From positions 1 through 20,927 of the IMG/VR virus record IMGVR_UViG_3300042691_017568: a stretch of DNA of 20,927 nt. The stretch is one strand, 5' to 3'. This stretch comes from a virus. Positions 11,757 to 20,927 of the stretch are shown here, in pieces. The notes under the pieces were generated by a model, which saw nothing but the letters and a program-made list of their open reading frames with translations, made no database searches and was not told the origin of the DNA. Within the stretch, counting starts at the first letter, position 1. Each line of letters starts with the position of its first letter. The position numbers were made by a program, and so were the translations under genes.

Positions 11757-12073
11757 AGACGAAGTACGAAGCCAAGCCGAACACGGCGACGTTGTTCCTG
11801 AACGAAGACAAGCGCCCTGACCAAGTGATGAAGAACCCAGACGGCAGCGAATGGGTACGCACCGATGCTGATTACAAGGGCAGCGGCCTGATCGGTGGCG
11901 TGAACTACTGGGTTGATCTTTACAAGAAAAAGAGCAAGACCGGCAACGAATACTTTTCAATCAAGGTCAAGCCCAAGGGCGCACCGACTGTCGTGAAGAA
12001 GGCCGTGAACTCTGGCCTCACCGAAGACAACTGGGATAGCGTTGATTTCAAAGACGACGAAATCAAATTCTGA
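11753..12073 (+). CDS. Small protein with SSB-like acidic C-terminal tail
   Basis: A 106-residue protein starting at GTG 11753 (GTGA overlap with the exonuclease stop, GGAG upstream). The N-terminal part has alternating strands (TATLFLNEDKR, YWVDLYKKKSKTGNEYFSIK), which could be a small OB-like or beta-barrel fold. It ends in DNWDSVDFKDDEIKF, an acidic tail closing on a hydrophobic residue and Phe, much like the DDDIPF tail by which single-stranded DNA-binding proteins recruit partners. With ERF and exonuclease upstream, a DNA-binding accessory role is likely but unproven. Confidence 0.6.
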   Translation: MKTKYEAKPNTATLFLNEDKRPDQVMKNPDGSEWVRTDADYKGSGLIGGVNYWVDLYKKKSKTGNEYFSIKVKPKGAPTVVKKAVNSGLTEDNWDSVDFKDDEIKF

Positions 12074-12864
12074 TGAAACGATTTCTGTCACTGGGTGCCG
12101 GAGTGCAGTCATCGACGATGGCGTTGATGATTGCGCATGGCGAAATCCCTATGGTGGAAGCGGCCATCTTTTCAGACACTCAAGCCGAACCCGACGCGGT
12201 GTATACCTGGCTTGATTGGTTGGAAAAGCAACTGCCGTTTCCGGTTTATCGAGTAACGCGCTCATCGCTCGAGAAGGATGTGCTGAACAGCGTAAACGAT
12301 CCGAAACGTCACCGGGTTGGGCAAATACCGTTTTACGTTAAGTCGGAGGGTGATGCCCGAGAAGGAATGCTTTGGCGGCAATGCACCGGGGACTACAAAA
12401 TTCAGCCGCTTCGAAAAAAGGTTAAAGAGCTGTTAAAAGTTGACGGCAGCAAACAGGCAACCATGTTGATTGGCATATCGCTCGATGAGGTCATTCGCAT
12501 GAAACCCTCACAAGTGCGGTATATCGTCAACGACTACCCGTTGATTGACCTTCGCATGACGCGCTCAGATTGCTTGAATTGGATGGCGAAACACAATTAC
12601 CCATTGCCTGCAAAGTCGGCGTGTTACTTCTGCCCTTACACAGATGACGCCCGGTGGCGTGATATTAAACATAATCAGCCGACAGAGTTTGAAAAGGCAA
12701 TTAAGTTTGATGCCGCGATTCGTTCAGGTTTACCTGGGGTACGCGGAAAGGCATTTCTTCATCGTAGTTTGAAACCGCTCGGCGAAATTGATTTTCGTAA
12801 CGCAGAAGATTTCGGGCAGGGTCGGTTGTTCGGCGAAGAATGCGAAGGTATGTGCGGCGTATGA
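12073..12864 (+). CDS. PP-loop ATPase, PAPS-reductase-like
   Basis: A 263-residue protein of the adenine-nucleotide alpha-hydrolase superfamily. The PP-loop SLGAGVQSST is at residues 6-15, and an FSDTQAEPD strand follows at about 33-41. Cysteines lie at 104 (RQCTGDYK), 167, 184 and 187 (CYFC) and 257 and 261 (CEGMC, next to the C-terminus), which could bind a metal or an iron-sulfur cluster or carry sulfur. Family members activate a substrate with ATP or reduce PAPS; phage versions are common and uncharacterised, and DNA or RNA thiolation (DndC-like) is one possibility. It overlaps neighbours on both sides (TGATG, ATGA). Confidence 0.75.
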   Translation: MKRFLSLGAGVQSSTMALMIAHGEIPMVEAAIFSDTQAEPDAVYTWLDWLEKQLPFPVYRVTRSSLEKDVLNSVNDPKRHRVGQIPFYVKSEGDAREGMLWRQCTGDYKIQPLRKKVKELLKVDGSKQATMLIGISLDEVIRMKPSQVRYIVNDYPLIDLRMTRSDCLNWMAKHNYPLPAKSACYFCPYTDDARWRDIKHNQPTEFEKAIKFDAAIRSGLPGVRGKAFLHRSLKPLGEIDFRNAEDFGQGRLFGEECEGMCGV

Positions 12865-13181
12865 TCTCAGAAGAGCGGGCAGAAAAGGCGTTGCGTTTTC
12901 TCGTCGACACCGACGAGCGTGCAGCCGTGGCGAAGGGAGAGGTCGAACGTGCGGAGTTCGCATTCAAGCGAACCCGTGAGGCGATCTTCTCCCACGCTGA
13001 CGGCACGGTGGCTGAGCGCCAGGCTATCGCTGCGCAGCATCCAAAGACGTTGGAGGCGCACGAGGCTTACGTTGAGGCGTTGAAGGCGTCACAGTTTTTG
13101 GCGAACAAGCGCGACACCGAGCGGATCGTATTGGACGTATTTAGAACACTATGCGCAAACAAGAGGCAAGGAACCGTATGA
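12861..13181 (+). CDS. Helical protein of unknown function
   Basis: A 106-residue protein, almost wholly charged alpha-helix (SEERAEKALRFLVDTDERAA, VAKGEVERAEFAFKRTREAI), resembling small phage helical proteins found beside ERF-type recombination genes. The ATG at 12861 overlaps the previous stop (ATGA), which is why it is preferred to the frame's earlier start. It ends overlapping the next gene (ATGA). No catalytic motif is present. Confidence 0.7.
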   Translation: MISEERAEKALRFLVDTDERAAVAKGEVERAEFAFKRTREAIFSHADGTVAERQAIAAQHPKTLEAHEAYVEALKASQFLANKRDTERIVLDVFRTLCANKRQGTV

Positions 13182-13402
13182 CTCAGACACAAAAGATTAA
13201 GGCGGCGCTCGAAGCGGGCGTTGCCATCACTCCCATCGACGCGCTCAATCTTTACGGGTGCTTTCGATTGGCGGCCCGTATTGATGAACTGCGCAAAGAG
13301 GGCATGGACATCGAAACCGTGACGCAGACGCGTAACGGAAAGCGTTATGCCGCCTATGTGATGCGTGGGCAGTCGCTGCCGCTTTTCGGTATGGGTGCTT
13401 AA
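13178..13402 (+). CDS. Helix-turn-helix protein
   Basis: A 74-residue protein with the pattern of a winged helix-turn-helix: TQKIKAALEAGVAITPIDAL, then NLYGCFRLAARIDELRKEGM, then strand-like DIETVTQTRNGKRYAAYVM. I recognise this as a common small phage HTH type. The ATG at 13178 is chosen because it overlaps the previous stop and has AAGGA six bases upstream; an in-frame ATG at 13151 exists but would lie deep in the upstream gene. It may bind DNA; target unknown. Confidence 0.75.
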   Translation: MTQTQKIKAALEAGVAITPIDALNLYGCFRLAARIDELRKEGMDIETVTQTRNGKRYAAYVMRGQSLPLFGMGA

Positions 13403-13983: not shown

Positions 13984-14049
13984 ATGTCAAAAGAACCGAT
14001 GTCGAGCGGCATCGTAGAGGGGTTACATGGAAAGCGCAAGAGATATTGA
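13984..14049 (+). CDS. Possible 21-residue leader peptide
   Basis: An ATG at 13984, preceded by the purine-rich AGAGGG at short spacing, opens a 21-codon frame ending at TGA 14047-14049. It overlaps the first 23 bases of the helicase gene in another frame and ends in a basic HGKRKRY. It could be a leader peptide whose translation affects access to the helicase start, or chance. There is no homology evidence. Confidence 0.25.
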   Translation: MSKEPMSSGIVEGLHGKRKRY

Positions 14050-15340
14050 CGTTGCCGATCTGAAGCCGTCGGACTGGTTTAAACGATTTGTTTACGTTGC
14101 CGAAGGCGATTACTTTTTTGACGTAATCGACCGGCAGGAATACACCCGCCACAGCTTCAACGCGATTATGCGAGGTCACGCATTAAACAGCGTGCATAAC
14201 AAGACCCGGCGCATCGAGGCGGGAACTTTTTTCGATGAGAACCGTCACGCGCTTGGGAGCCGTGCCGTACTGGGCTTGACCTATGCGGCAGGAGAGGGCG
14301 TCTTGGTCGCTCGGGGCGGCAAAGCGCAGGCTAATAAGTGGCAGGACGCAAGGCCGGAGGGCGTGCCTGGGGATGTCTCCATTTGGATACGCCATGTTGA
14401 GCGGATGATCCCGAACCCCCAAGAGCGGGCGCACGTGTTGGACGTATTGGCGTACAAGCGCCAACACCCGAACCGCAAGATTAACCACGCTATCCTGCAT
14501 AGCGGCCTGCCGGGTAGCGGTAAGGACTCGCTCTATGCGCCCTTCCTGTGGTCGATTGGCGGCCCGACCCTTGCTAACGTCGCCAGCAGCCGCGCTGAGG
14601 AAGTCGCCGGGGCGTGGGGTTACTCGCTCGAGTCTGAGGTCATTGTCCTCAACGAACTGCGGCAGGGTGCAACGTCGGACCGTCGGGCGCTAGAGAATGC
14701 GCTGAAGCCTGTGATCGCTGCGCCGCCCGAAATGCTCCTCGTCAACAAGAAGCAGCAGCACCCGTACTACGTCGCCAACCGGATTTTCGTACTGGCTTTC
14801 AGCAACGAACGCGCCGCTATTACGATTGCGCCCACGGATCGGCGTTGGTTTGTGGTTTGGTCGGACGCTGGCCCCATGCCTGCGCAGGACGCGGAGGCGC
14901 TTTGGGACTGGTACAACGACGGCGGTTTCGCTCACGTCGCCGCGTGGCTCGATGCCCGGGACGTGTCCAAATTTAACCCCGGTGCGCCGCCTATGATGAC
15001 TGAGGCCAAGTTGGCGATGGTTGACTTGGGCCTCTCCGGTGGCGAATCGGCGCTTGCTGATATGGCAAAGCATCGTGAGGGCATCTTTGCCCGTGGCATC
15101 GTGGCGAGTCCCTGGAGCCAAGTTGCCGCGCAGATATCCAAAGGCATGGCAAAGACCGTCTCTCGAGAAACGCTCTTTGCCGCCCTCGCTGCGGCAGGCT
15201 GGAAGGATATCGGTCGGGCGCACAGCGGCGAACATCAGACGCCGAAACACTTGTGGGTCTGCCCGGAGTTTGCCGAGCTGCCCCGCGCCCAGTTGCGAAA
15301 CATGGTTGAGGGGCCGCCCGGTCTCCACATTGTCAAGTAA
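14027..15340 (+). CDS. Replication helicase, DUF5906-type P-loop ATPase
   Basis: A 437-residue protein. The N-terminal 130 residues are a conserved-looking domain (FVYVAEGDYFFDVIDRQEY, HNKTRRIEAGTFF). A Walker A loop GLPGSGKDS lies at 160-168, Walker B VIVLNE at 205-210, a sensor asparagine at 260 (FVLAFSN) and a likely arginine finger at 272-273 (DRRWFVVW). This order matches the D5/DUF5906-like superfamily 3-type helicases of primase-helicase proteins, which unwind DNA at phage origins. No primase domain is fused to it. GAGGGG is five bases before the ATG. The stop (15338-15340) touches the stop of a convergent micropeptide gene. Confidence 0.75.
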   Translation: MESARDIDVADLKPSDWFKRFVYVAEGDYFFDVIDRQEYTRHSFNAIMRGHALNSVHNKTRRIEAGTFFDENRHALGSRAVLGLTYAAGEGVLVARGGKAQANKWQDARPEGVPGDVSIWIRHVERMIPNPQERAHVLDVLAYKRQHPNRKINHAILHSGLPGSGKDSLYAPFLWSIGGPTLANVASSRAEEVAGAWGYSLESEVIVLNELRQGATSDRRALENALKPVIAAPPEMLLVNKKQQHPYYVANRIFVLAFSNERAAITIAPTDRRWFVVWSDAGPMPAQDAEALWDWYNDGGFAHVAAWLDARDVSKFNPGAPPMMTEAKLAMVDLGLSGGESALADMAKHREGIFARGIVASPWSQVAAQISKGMAKTVSRETLFAALAAAGWKDIGRAHSGEHQTPKHLWVCPEFAELPRAQLRNMVEGPPGLHIVK

Positions 15341-18493: not shown

Positions 18494-18706
18494 TTAGCGC
18501 AGACGCCCGGTGTAAACGGCAATCGCGTACACATTCGGGAAAGGCTGCGACAGTCGCGGGTCAGCGTTGGCAGCGATGACGTAAGCCTTCGCCTCCGCAG
18601 CCGTCGCAAACAACTGCGAGTAGATACGCCCCAAAAATGCGTAAGGCTTGCGGGTTGTCTCATCGAGTAAGGCTTCGCGGAACTCAACTACATACTTGCG
18701 TGACAT
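18494..18706 (-). CDS. Small unknown protein, first gene of the leftward operon
   Basis: A 70-residue protein (MSRKYVVEFREALLDETTRK, then FATAAEAKAYVIAANADPRL). The ATG at 18706 has GGAG eight bases upstream and follows the candidate promoter at 18742-18771. A longer reading from 18742 lacks a start signal. It is the promoter-proximal gene of the leftward operon and therefore probably its most abundant product. Function unknown. Confidence 0.65.
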   Translation of the reverse strand: MSRKYVVEFREALLDETTRKPYAFLGRIYSQLFATAAEAKAYVIAANADPRLSQPFPNVYAIAVYTGRLR

Positions 18707-18771: not shown

Positions 18772-18830
18772 ACAAAACGTAGCGCGTGACCATCTAGCGG
18801 ATACCGTAAAAACAGGGGGTTATGTAAGGT

Positions 18831-18916
18831 GATGGTAAAAAAAAGAGAAAAAGTGAAAGTGTAAAAAAGTGGGAATTACAGATTGCACTTTGAAAAAAGA
18901 CCAAATTTTTACCATC
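18831..18916. repeat. Long-range 11-bp inverted repeat
   Basis: GATGGTAAAAA (18831-18841) and TTTTTACCATC (18906-18916) are exact reverse complements separated by 64 bases of purine-rich, A-tract sequence. It could form a large stem-loop or be a pair of protein sites in opposite orientation. Confidence 0.5.
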
Positions 18917-18971: not shown

Positions 18972-19112
18972 GTTGCGTCTACGCAACAACTATGTTGCAT
19001 CTACGCAACTTGCAGGCTTGACCACCTATCGGTCACGCATTGGCATGGATCGTGCTACCACTCACGCTTGCTTGTTGCTTACGCGCAACACAATCTGTTG
19101 CGTATACGCTAC
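18972..19112. repeat. Four copies of a 16-bp dyad (iteron-like)
   Basis: Copies: GTTGCGTCTACGCAAC (18972-18987, perfect 7-bp arms), GTTGCATCTACGCAAC (18994-19009, one mismatch), GTTGCTTACGCGCAAC (19074-19089, five-base outer arms kept) and GTTGCGTATACGCTAC (19097-19112, one mismatch). They form two pairs, with start-to-start distances of 22 and 23 bases, about two helical turns, and 80 bases between the pairs. This is the layout of sites for a dimeric protein, such as an origin initiator, a partition or packaging protein, or a repressor. Confidence 0.75.
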
Positions 19113-19161
19113 GTCCGCTAGGTGGACAGACAACCTAAACGAGAATTGTTTGCGTTGAGCA

Positions 19162-19184
19162 GGGAGGGGGAGGGGGTGGGGGGG
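19162..19184 (+). other. G-quadruplex-forming motif
   Basis: Four runs of G (3, 5, 5 and 7 bases) are separated by single bases A, A and T, the ideal pattern for a stable parallel G-quadruplex on the plus strand. It begins 50 bases after the last 16-bp dyad. No open reading frame gives a reason for it. Confidence 0.6.
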
Positions 19185-19265
19185 TACAGGGCCAGGGGAT
19201 TTGCCTTTACTGTTACGGTAGGACTCGTGAACAATTTTTTTTTATTTATCCCTACCAAACTTTCC

Positions 19266-19294
19266 TTGTCACTTCACATTGTGTTGTGTATCTT
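19266..19294 (+). promoter_or_regulatory. Candidate promoter for the terminase genes
   Basis: TTGTCA (19266-19271, 5/6) and TATCTT (19289-19294, 4/6) are separated by 17 bases. A T-rich tract (about 19232-19247) lies just upstream and could serve as an UP element. The predicted start is near 19301, about 190 bases before the small terminase gene. The boxes closely resemble those of the leftward early promoter (TTGTCA-17-TATCGT). Confidence 0.45.
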
Positions 19295-19488
19295 CGGCGC
19301 TACAGCGTCTGGCGTGATGCGCACGCAGCGACCGAGAGGAAACTGAAGGTGTGGTGGGTTAGTCCATACCGGACATCTAAGGCAACAGGTGCAAGCGTTA
19401 ACCCCTTGCGCTTTGCACTCCGCCTCGGCACACAGTCCCGACGGACGTTCGGGATCGCGGCCTCCCGGCAGGATGAGCCTGCACGCTT

Positions 19489-19983
19489 ATGCTAGGGGAC
19501 ATCGTGGAAGATACGTTTCGCTCGATACCGTTTGAGCCGAGAGAACTGAAGGCTACGCCTGACGTTCTAGAGAAGATTTACGCCGCCGCTAAACTTGGCA
19601 TCAAGGGAGATGCCTTGGCCTTTGCTGCGGGTTTGCTCCCAATTGAGTATCGTCGGCTGATGGCGCTCGATCAGGCAGCGTCGATTGCCGAGGCGAAAGG
19701 TCGTGCCGATAGTGAGGTTGAGGCGGCTGCCGTTGTGCGAAACGCGGCTATGGATGGAGATAGCAAGGCAGCTATGGCGCTCCTCACCCACTTGCATGAC
19801 TGGATGCCGAAGCAGCAAATCAACATCGACATCAAATCCCAGATCAGCATTACAGCGGCACTGCAAGAAGCGGAGTCTCGCGTCATCCAGGGCAGAATAT
19901 TGCAGGGTGAAGCGGTTGCATTAGAAGACCACTCCGCCGAACCCCTTGCGTTAGAATCAGAACGTGCAACTGCCAATCTATAG
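19489..19983 (+). CDS. terS: Terminase small subunit
   Basis: A 164-residue protein. Residues about 20-65 form a helix-turn-helix-like DNA-recognition part (LKATPDVLEKIYAAAKLGIK, GDALAFAAGLLPIEYRRLMA), followed by an alpha-helical oligomerisation region rich in Ala and Glu and a segment near HDWMPKQQINIDIKSQISIT that recurs in small terminases. It recognises the packaging site and recruits the large subunit. ATG at 19489 has no ribosome site; GTG 19504, five codons in, follows AGGGGA and may be the true start. It overlaps the large-subunit gene by 20 bases, which strongly supports the call. Confidence 0.75.
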   Translation: MLGDIVEDTFRSIPFEPRELKATPDVLEKIYAAAKLGIKGDALAFAAGLLPIEYRRLMALDQAASIAEAKGRADSEVEAAAVVRNAAMDGDSKAAMALLTHLHDWMPKQQINIDIKSQISITAALQEAESRVIQGRILQGEAVALEDHSAEPLALESERATANL

Positions 19984-20927
19984 CCCGGAGGACGAGCAGG
20001 CTCTAATGAGCAAGCTCTGGTCTGCCGCCATCAAGGACGACCCAGAAGCCTTCGTGCTATTCGTGTTTCCGTGGGGGCAAAAGAATACGCCCCTCGAACA
20101 CTTCAAAGGTCCGCGCAAATGGCAGCGTCAGGTGCTGCGTCAAGTACGCGACCACATCGCTAAACAGAAAGACCTTACCTCTTACGAAGTCTTGCGTATG
20201 GCGACGGCTTCTGGACGCGGTATCGGTAAATCCGCGCTCGTGTCGTGGTTGATTCTGTGGATGCTCACAACCCGTATCGGCAGTACCACGATTGTCTCGG
20301 CTAACTCTGAAGCGCAGCTCCGGTCAGTCACCTGGGCAGAAATCACCAAGTGGGCGGCGCTCCTCATTAACTCACATTGGTTTGAGATTAGTGCGACTCG
20401 AGTAATGCCTGCCAAGTGGATCGCTGAACTCGTCGAACGCGACCTCAAGAAAGGCACGCGTTACTGGTCCGTTGAAGGCCGTCTCTGGTCCGAAGAAAAC
20501 CCCGACTCTTACGCTGGCGTACACAACCACGATGGCGTCATGGTGATCTTTGACGAAGCCTCTGGTATACCAGATTCTATCTGGTCAGTGACTTCAGGCT
20601 TCTTTACGGAAAACACCCCGAATCGTTTTTGGTGCGCATTCAGCAACCCGCGACGTGGCGAAGGCTATTTTTTTGAGGCATTCCATGCAAAAAGAAACTT
20701 CTGGTTCACGCAAAGCATCGACGCCCGCGAAGTCGAAGACACCGACAAAGCGGTCTACGAGCAAATCATCGCCGAATACGGCCCGGACTCCTCGCAAGCC
20801 AAAATCGAAGTCTACGGCCAGTTTCCAACCGATAACTCCGATCAATTTGTCCCGGCTTCCTACGTGGAAAGTGCGGCAACTCGCGGACGGTACGGGGACA
20901 CTAGCGCGCCACGCGTTATCGGAGTTG
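19964..20927 (+). CDS. terL: Terminase large subunit (5' part; runs off the window)
   Basis: 321 codons are present, without a stop. The N-terminus reads YSPEDEQALMSKLWS...FVLFVFPWGQ...TPLEHFKGPRKWQRQVL, as in many phage packaging ATPases. Walker A is ASGRGIGKSAL (about residue 82-92), Walker B MVIFDEAS (about 188-195), followed by a coupling motif region (FWCAFSNPRRGEGYFF). The nuclease domain would lie beyond the window. It cuts and pumps phage DNA into the procapsid. The GTG at 19964 is preferred because homologs carry the SPEDE segment; ATG at 20006 is the alternative start. Confidence 0.9.
   Translation, partial: MQLPIYSPEDEQALMSKLWSAAIKDDPEAFVLFVFPWGQKNTPLEHFKGPRKWQRQVLRQVRDHIAKQKDLTSYEVLRMATASGRGIGKSALVSWLILWMLTTRIGSTTIVSANSEAQLRSVTWAEITKWAALLINSHWFEISATRVMPAKWIAELVERDLKKGTRYWSVEGRLWSEENPDSYAGVHNHDGVMVIFDEASGIPDSIWSVTSGFFTENTPNRFWCAFSNPRRGEGYFFEAFHAKRNFWFTQSIDAREVEDTDKAVYEQIIAEYGPDSSQAKIEVYGQFPTDNSDQFVPASYVESAATRGRYGDTSAPRVIGV

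Follow-up and report, generated by a model that had tools for sequence, protein, structure and literature searches.

In phage λ the O gene itself contains the origin iterons, which adjoin an AT-rich tract; the number of O-protein iterons varies, with four copies in λ and six in Stx phages (PMC7466680). Lambdoid repressor and Cro operators are palindromic sites (~17 bp) located between divergently transcribed genes, and the R sites of λ cosB as well as headful pac sites are repeated binding sites of ~16 bp near terS. In P4-type origins the α primase-helicase is combined with short iterons. Here we describe a dyad array upstream of terS and its surroundings, which share features with these systems.

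As judged from its nucleotide sequence, the stretch of DNA analysed here (the window; 20,927 nucleotides, IMG/VR record IMGVR_UViG_3300042691_017568) is a fragment of a P22-like podovirus of ~37-38 kb. Its TerL is closest to those of MW202483 (69%) and OR003940 (65%) and more distant from those of epsilon15, phiV10 and P22-type phages; the genomes of the two near relatives measure 37-39 kb, and MW202483 is on record as a podovirus whose coat and portal protein are P22-like. The maps of two near-complete relatives (G001 and G002) are circular, as shown by end overlaps of 127 bp. A TerS-based search of GTDB genomes yielded no prophage relatives. Within the replication operon, a gene at 12073-12864 resembles, by eye, a PAPS-reductase-type enzyme. 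To the left of the array lies a minus-strand accessory operon, whose first gene starts at 18706, and to the right lies terS. No credible gene is found between these two starts, i.e. the stretch is indeed gene-free, as it had been described.

Table 1. Position of the dyad array and of associated features in the window.
Feature	Position	Strand	Sequence or pattern	Remarks
HTH_39 winged-helix protein	13151..13402	+		PF14090, 8.7e-14; candidate dyad reader
DUF5906 helicase (P4-alpha-like)	14027..15340	+		C-terminal domain follows class I repeats, not dyads
Class I region	18786..18916		GTGACCATC (18786), GATGGTAA (18831), TTACCATC (18909)	clearer in L020, L063
Dyad 1	18972..18987		GTTGCGTCTACGCAAC	perfect 7-bp arms; same sequence in L005, L007, L008, L010, L011, L020
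Dyad 2	18994..19009		GTTGCATCTACGCAAC	pattern scan and relatives
Dyad 3	19074..19089		GTTGCTTACGCGCAAC	imperfect; counterparts in L007, L010, L020
Dyad 4	19097..19112		GTTGCGTATACGCTAC	counterpart in L020
G-run (four-tract G-quadruplex motif) and GGGCC	19162..19193	+		start of conserved core
A-T tract	19230..19249	+	AACAATTTTTTTTTATTTAT	end of conserved core
Sigma-70-like promoter	19266..19294	+	TTGTCA-17-TATCTT	a single hit (0.8 expected); at a comparable position in relatives
Structured RNA candidate	19300..19485	+		between promoter and terS
terS, terminase small subunit	19489..19983	+		by position and relatives
terL, terminase large subunit	19964..20926	+		leaves the window at its end

The array consists of four dyads of the form GTTGCGT-NN-ACGCAAC within positions 18972-19112, i.e. 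7-bp arms around a 2-bp centre, and an 18-bp version (TGTTGCRTNNACGCAACA) is present in relatives (Table 1). A preliminary description had reported near-identical palindromes arranged as two pairs with repeats of 22 and 23 bases. The start-to-start steps of 22, 80 and 23 bp bear out the pairs, and near-identity holds for copies 1, 2 and 4 (100, 94 and 88%), but not for copy 3 (75%). When up to three mismatches are allowed, the dyad pattern gives eight strand-hits in the window, every one at the four sites, as compared to 0.84 expected, and eight hits were reached in none of 100 dinucleotide shuffles. The pattern scan found no further site elsewhere in the 20,927-base record, and in G001 and G002, too, good sites occur only here, so the motif is confined to this spot. 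Copy 3, taken alone, would fit chance palindromes or an unremarkable decayed repeat; given the shuffle tests and the conservation in dozens of contigs, however, the probability of this explanation is practically nil, conservation being what refutes it.

The motif is kept at the same place upstream of terS in these dozens of contigs, identified in a first set of 19 TerS relatives and a wider set of 80. In the window's own clade every contig that extends into this region has it (steps of 21-23 bp), and it also precedes terS in L013-L018, where the step is 18 bp; L021-L023, which are more distant TerS relatives, lack it. Both refuting outcomes named in the preliminary description, a random scatter across the genome and a loss of the position in relatives, are thereby contradicted. 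When palindrome clusters were sought de novo within 900 bp upstream of terS, ~50 loci again yielded this 18-bp dyad, the clusters being mostly far above shuffles. A TerS-independent scan of IMG/VR, for which two adjacent dyads served as query, returned 61 contigs: 55 of them have terS 610-1065 bp downstream, four (L196, L202, L223 and L228) stop before terS and share the downstream core described below, and two (L179 and L221) are unrelated, i.e. terS or the core follows the array in 59 of the 61. Arrays comprise 2-8 copies across the relatives, mostly 18-29 bp apart, and 102 distinct sites give the consensus TGTTGC[AG]TNNACGCAACA. Among 37 aligned arrays half-sites are 97.8% identical as compared to 84.7% between the dyads, a contrast that is biased, as the first two dyads were the selection criterion. 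Single near-dyads in G003 lie within coding sequence and were not accepted as an array. By contrast with the common spacing of the window's pairs, which had been taken to place the sites on one face of the helix, the steps in relatives are 18, 20, 21, 22, 23 and 26-29 bp and thus 0.0-0.76 of a turn out of phase; the assumption of a common face was abandoned.

The dyads are best explained as binding sites for a sequence-specific, probably dimeric protein, presented as an array within an intergenic control hub; that we are dealing with a conserved array of protein-binding sites appears very likely. The array most probably forms part of the replication origin or of a switch for the late genes. 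A motif of a host protein was rejected as the identity of the dyads, since a scan of 257 Gb of GTDB sequence found the two-dyad array in only five contigs. As each dyad can be folded, and as there is one weak terminator-like match (19009-18994), the dyads might alternatively act as RNA hairpins, i.e. as terminators or processing sites. Yet two terminator-like sites were found where 1.2 are expected, and the variants GTTGCAT/ACGCAAC and GTTGCGT/ACGCTAC break pairs without compensation. Because variants alter one half of the dyad and leave the other uncompensated, the dyads are most readily understood as sites read in DNA, and hairpin function is very improbable.

A second class of repeats (class I, the dyads being class II) is located to the left of the array. 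Class I repeats are short phage-specific words that lie beside an A-rich tract in most phages; in the window, where the copies are weak, the purine-rich tract spans 18820-18915 and contains 72% A+T. The word is TGACCAT in the window's clade (five copies each in L020 and L063), TACTAAC in most of the main clade, GTGGTAGG in L113 and L116, GTTAGGC in L118, TAGTCATG in G003, TGTTTAC in MW202483 and TGACCCA in OR003940. Palindromes in MW202483 and OR003940, considered as counterparts of the dyads, belong to class I. A second small palindrome, CCGCTAGRTGG (CCATCTAGCGG on the other strand), occurs on both flanks of the region, at 18790-18800 and 19113-19123, and recurs in relatives.

Within the main clade, phages whose DUF5906 helicases differ in the C-terminal domain also differ in the class I word (SRETLFVAL-type with TACTAAC, NQNVLQIAL-type with TAGGTCA, NQAALNIAL-type with GTTAGGC), whereas the dyads remain constant. 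This match is a trend, not proof, as independent switches are few and several genomes lack a clear word. The combination of such a helicase with repeats next to an A-rich tract resembles a P4-type origin, but this resemblance concerns the class I repeats and not the dyads. Since the words switch with the helicase and the dyads stay, the pattern suggests that class I is the origin of the helicase and that the dyads are read by another protein; the class I region, with its helicase-specific short repeats, is a probable origin. For the same reason, i.e. its variation next to constant dyads, the helicase C-terminus was dismissed as the dyad reader.

The dyads themselves may belong to this origin. 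Like λ-type iterons, they are several dyads a few bases apart and vary in copy number. A+T-rich sequence that might serve as the melting region lies on either side, as the A-rich tract to the left and, beyond the G-run, as an A-T tract to the right. Unlike in λ, the array is located outside any initiator gene and no O homologue was seen, the G-run and GGGCC separate the array from the A-T tract, the steps are uneven, and a second repeat class is present alongside. According to our model the hub would hold a replication origin in which the DUF5906 helicase reads the class I repeats and the A-rich tract, and in which the dyads would act as λ-type iterons on which a dimeric initiator or loader builds a nucleoprotein complex beside the melting region. 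We favour an origin for two reasons: the class I repeats and the A-rich tract are neighbours of the array, and dyad arrays are rare in GTDB, with two of them found within cyanobacterial winged-helix genes. These two contigs carry 5-7 TGTTGCACCCACGCAACA-like dyads inside the gene, just behind the HTH domain (L264:524-640 and L265:555-700), so that these genes would show the layout of λ O, a parallel drawn from two genes. Against an origin, the same region also holds promoters. GC skew gave no origin signal and follows gene direction only. DnaA boxes, although enriched ~5-fold overall, occur in only ~15 of 70 loci and were discarded as an origin mark. A λ-like iteron mechanism for the dyads is accordingly put forward as a tentative reading that may well turn out to be wrong.

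The preliminary description had considered iterons of an origin, a cosB-like packaging site or a novel operator. There is good support for a functional cis-acting site that is restricted to this position, and among the three readings iterons are modestly favoured, with an operator as close rival and a cosB-like site as the weakest. If the dyads were operators, a phage regulator bound to them would govern the late promoter in front of the RNA element, terS and terL, the divergent accessory operon, or both, possibly by looping. The array is in fact situated between divergent transcription units, near a sigma-70-like promoter, as are the palindromic sites in the divergent intergenic region of lambdoid phages. 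Moreover, in OR003940 a different palindrome occupies the same place, and one copy of it, of class I, lies between the -35 (TTGACA) and -10 (AGAATT) elements of the accessory promoter. In the window, however, no dyad overlaps a recognizable promoter, and the nearest one ends ~150 bp before the -35 element. The sites are also not near the Cro gene, around which no good sites were found, and a P22_Cro-type repressor is an unlikely reader, as its recognition helices vary (SRQAVSKW in the window, YPQAIYQW in G001 and G002, TRQAVLRW in others) while the dyads are the same. We consider an operator array somewhat doubtful.

To the right of the array follows a core of G-run, GGGCC and A-T tract, and then the sigma-70-like promoter, which is probably the late promoter. 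The core is kept in phages that share TerL, being present in G003 and OR003940 as well and in a looser form in MW202483. The distance from the start of the array to the G-run is 129-130 bp in most contigs and 157-159 bp in a second set. In L005 the G-run (19162-19191 in the window) corresponds to ~30 G (around 1960-2004) with ~90 bp missing alongside, and L035 ends in the G-run. L055 and L063 carry an insertion with GATCTTCGG-type hairpin repeats between the core and the RNA element, which duplicates the A-T tract, and L008 has TCTTCGG repeats upstream of terS, similar to those of this insertion.

A fixed unit of array and core upstream of terS, with a core conserved among phages with shared TerL, could also constitute a pac or cosB-like packaging site, where the dyads would be recognized by TerS or by an accessory protein, which marks the DNA for cutting in the core. 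Repeated sites of ~16 bp near terS recall the λ R sites and pac sites, and L221, although unrelated, has three tandem GTTGCG dyads (12168-12230) in the intergenic region in front of its own terminase genes, at a distance of ~300 bp from these. Unlike the packaging sites, though, the array is palindromic, lies beyond the core as seen from terS and does not track TerS: MW202483 and G003, both without dyads, have a TerS that is 53-58% identical, HTH region included, which also speaks against TerS as the dyad reader, and array and terS are separated by anything from about 170 to 1100 bp. The contigs that end near terS do so at different positions, and these ends were rejected as packaging ends; the G-run, which may break assemblies, is a likely break. 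As the array is coupled to the core rather than to terS, and as TerS is similar in dyad-less phages, cosB-like packaging is the weakest reading and must be considered improbable.

The HTH_39 protein was a further candidate for the reader. All 23 dyad phages tested encode it, as against none of three without dyads, a distribution shared by several other genes, and its HTH segment is conserved among the relatives with recovered sequence, a few of the 23 (wrong frame) being excluded. HTH_39 is nevertheless an unproven candidate and was not accepted as the reader, since six unrelated HTH_39 phages are without dyads and L221, a fragment, has dyads without HTH_39.

Between the promoter and terS the locus contains an element that is probably a new structured RNA. 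It is mostly 156-197 nt long and present in 58 of the ~88 loci examined, and its pattern was found in 93 IMG/VR stretches. An alignment of 28 sequences supports 31 pairs in several helices, nine of which pairs are changed on both sides and none broken, with the proviso that the structure was derived from the same alignment on which it was scored, which favours it. In controls, shuffled 3' letters matched the real pairing in none of 500 trials, and slid structures dropped to 31-47% paired. Folded as a single sequence the element is no more stable than shuffles, and an Rfam search gave no family match. Its function might be that of a late leader, of a packaging RNA or of a regulatory RNA. In another phage group (L026, L029 and L031) GTTGCGTTTACGCAAC is followed by GTTGCCTTTAGGCAAC or GTTGCCTTTCGGCAAC; these elements look like RNA hairpins and not like the dyads because their changes are paired. 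The open-access literature yielded no published description of either the dyad array or the structured RNA.

One could imagine that the hub couples replication, late transcription and packaging, combining helicase-specific class I iterons, invariant class II dyads read by a second protein, a core of G-quadruplex, GGGCC and A-T tract at a constant distance, and a late promoter from which the structured RNA is transcribed, although in its entirety this scheme is rather unlikely. Of the two, it may be the covarying RNA, and not the dyads, that is the larger discovery. For an uncultured and widespread group of freshwater phages, the array defines a cis-acting control region whose motif can be tested and in which two repeat classes can be set apart, one that switches with the helicase and one that is constant. 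Origin recognition in phages with P4-α-like helicases thereby becomes directly testable, as does the way in which the origin is linked to the late promoter and the packaging genes.
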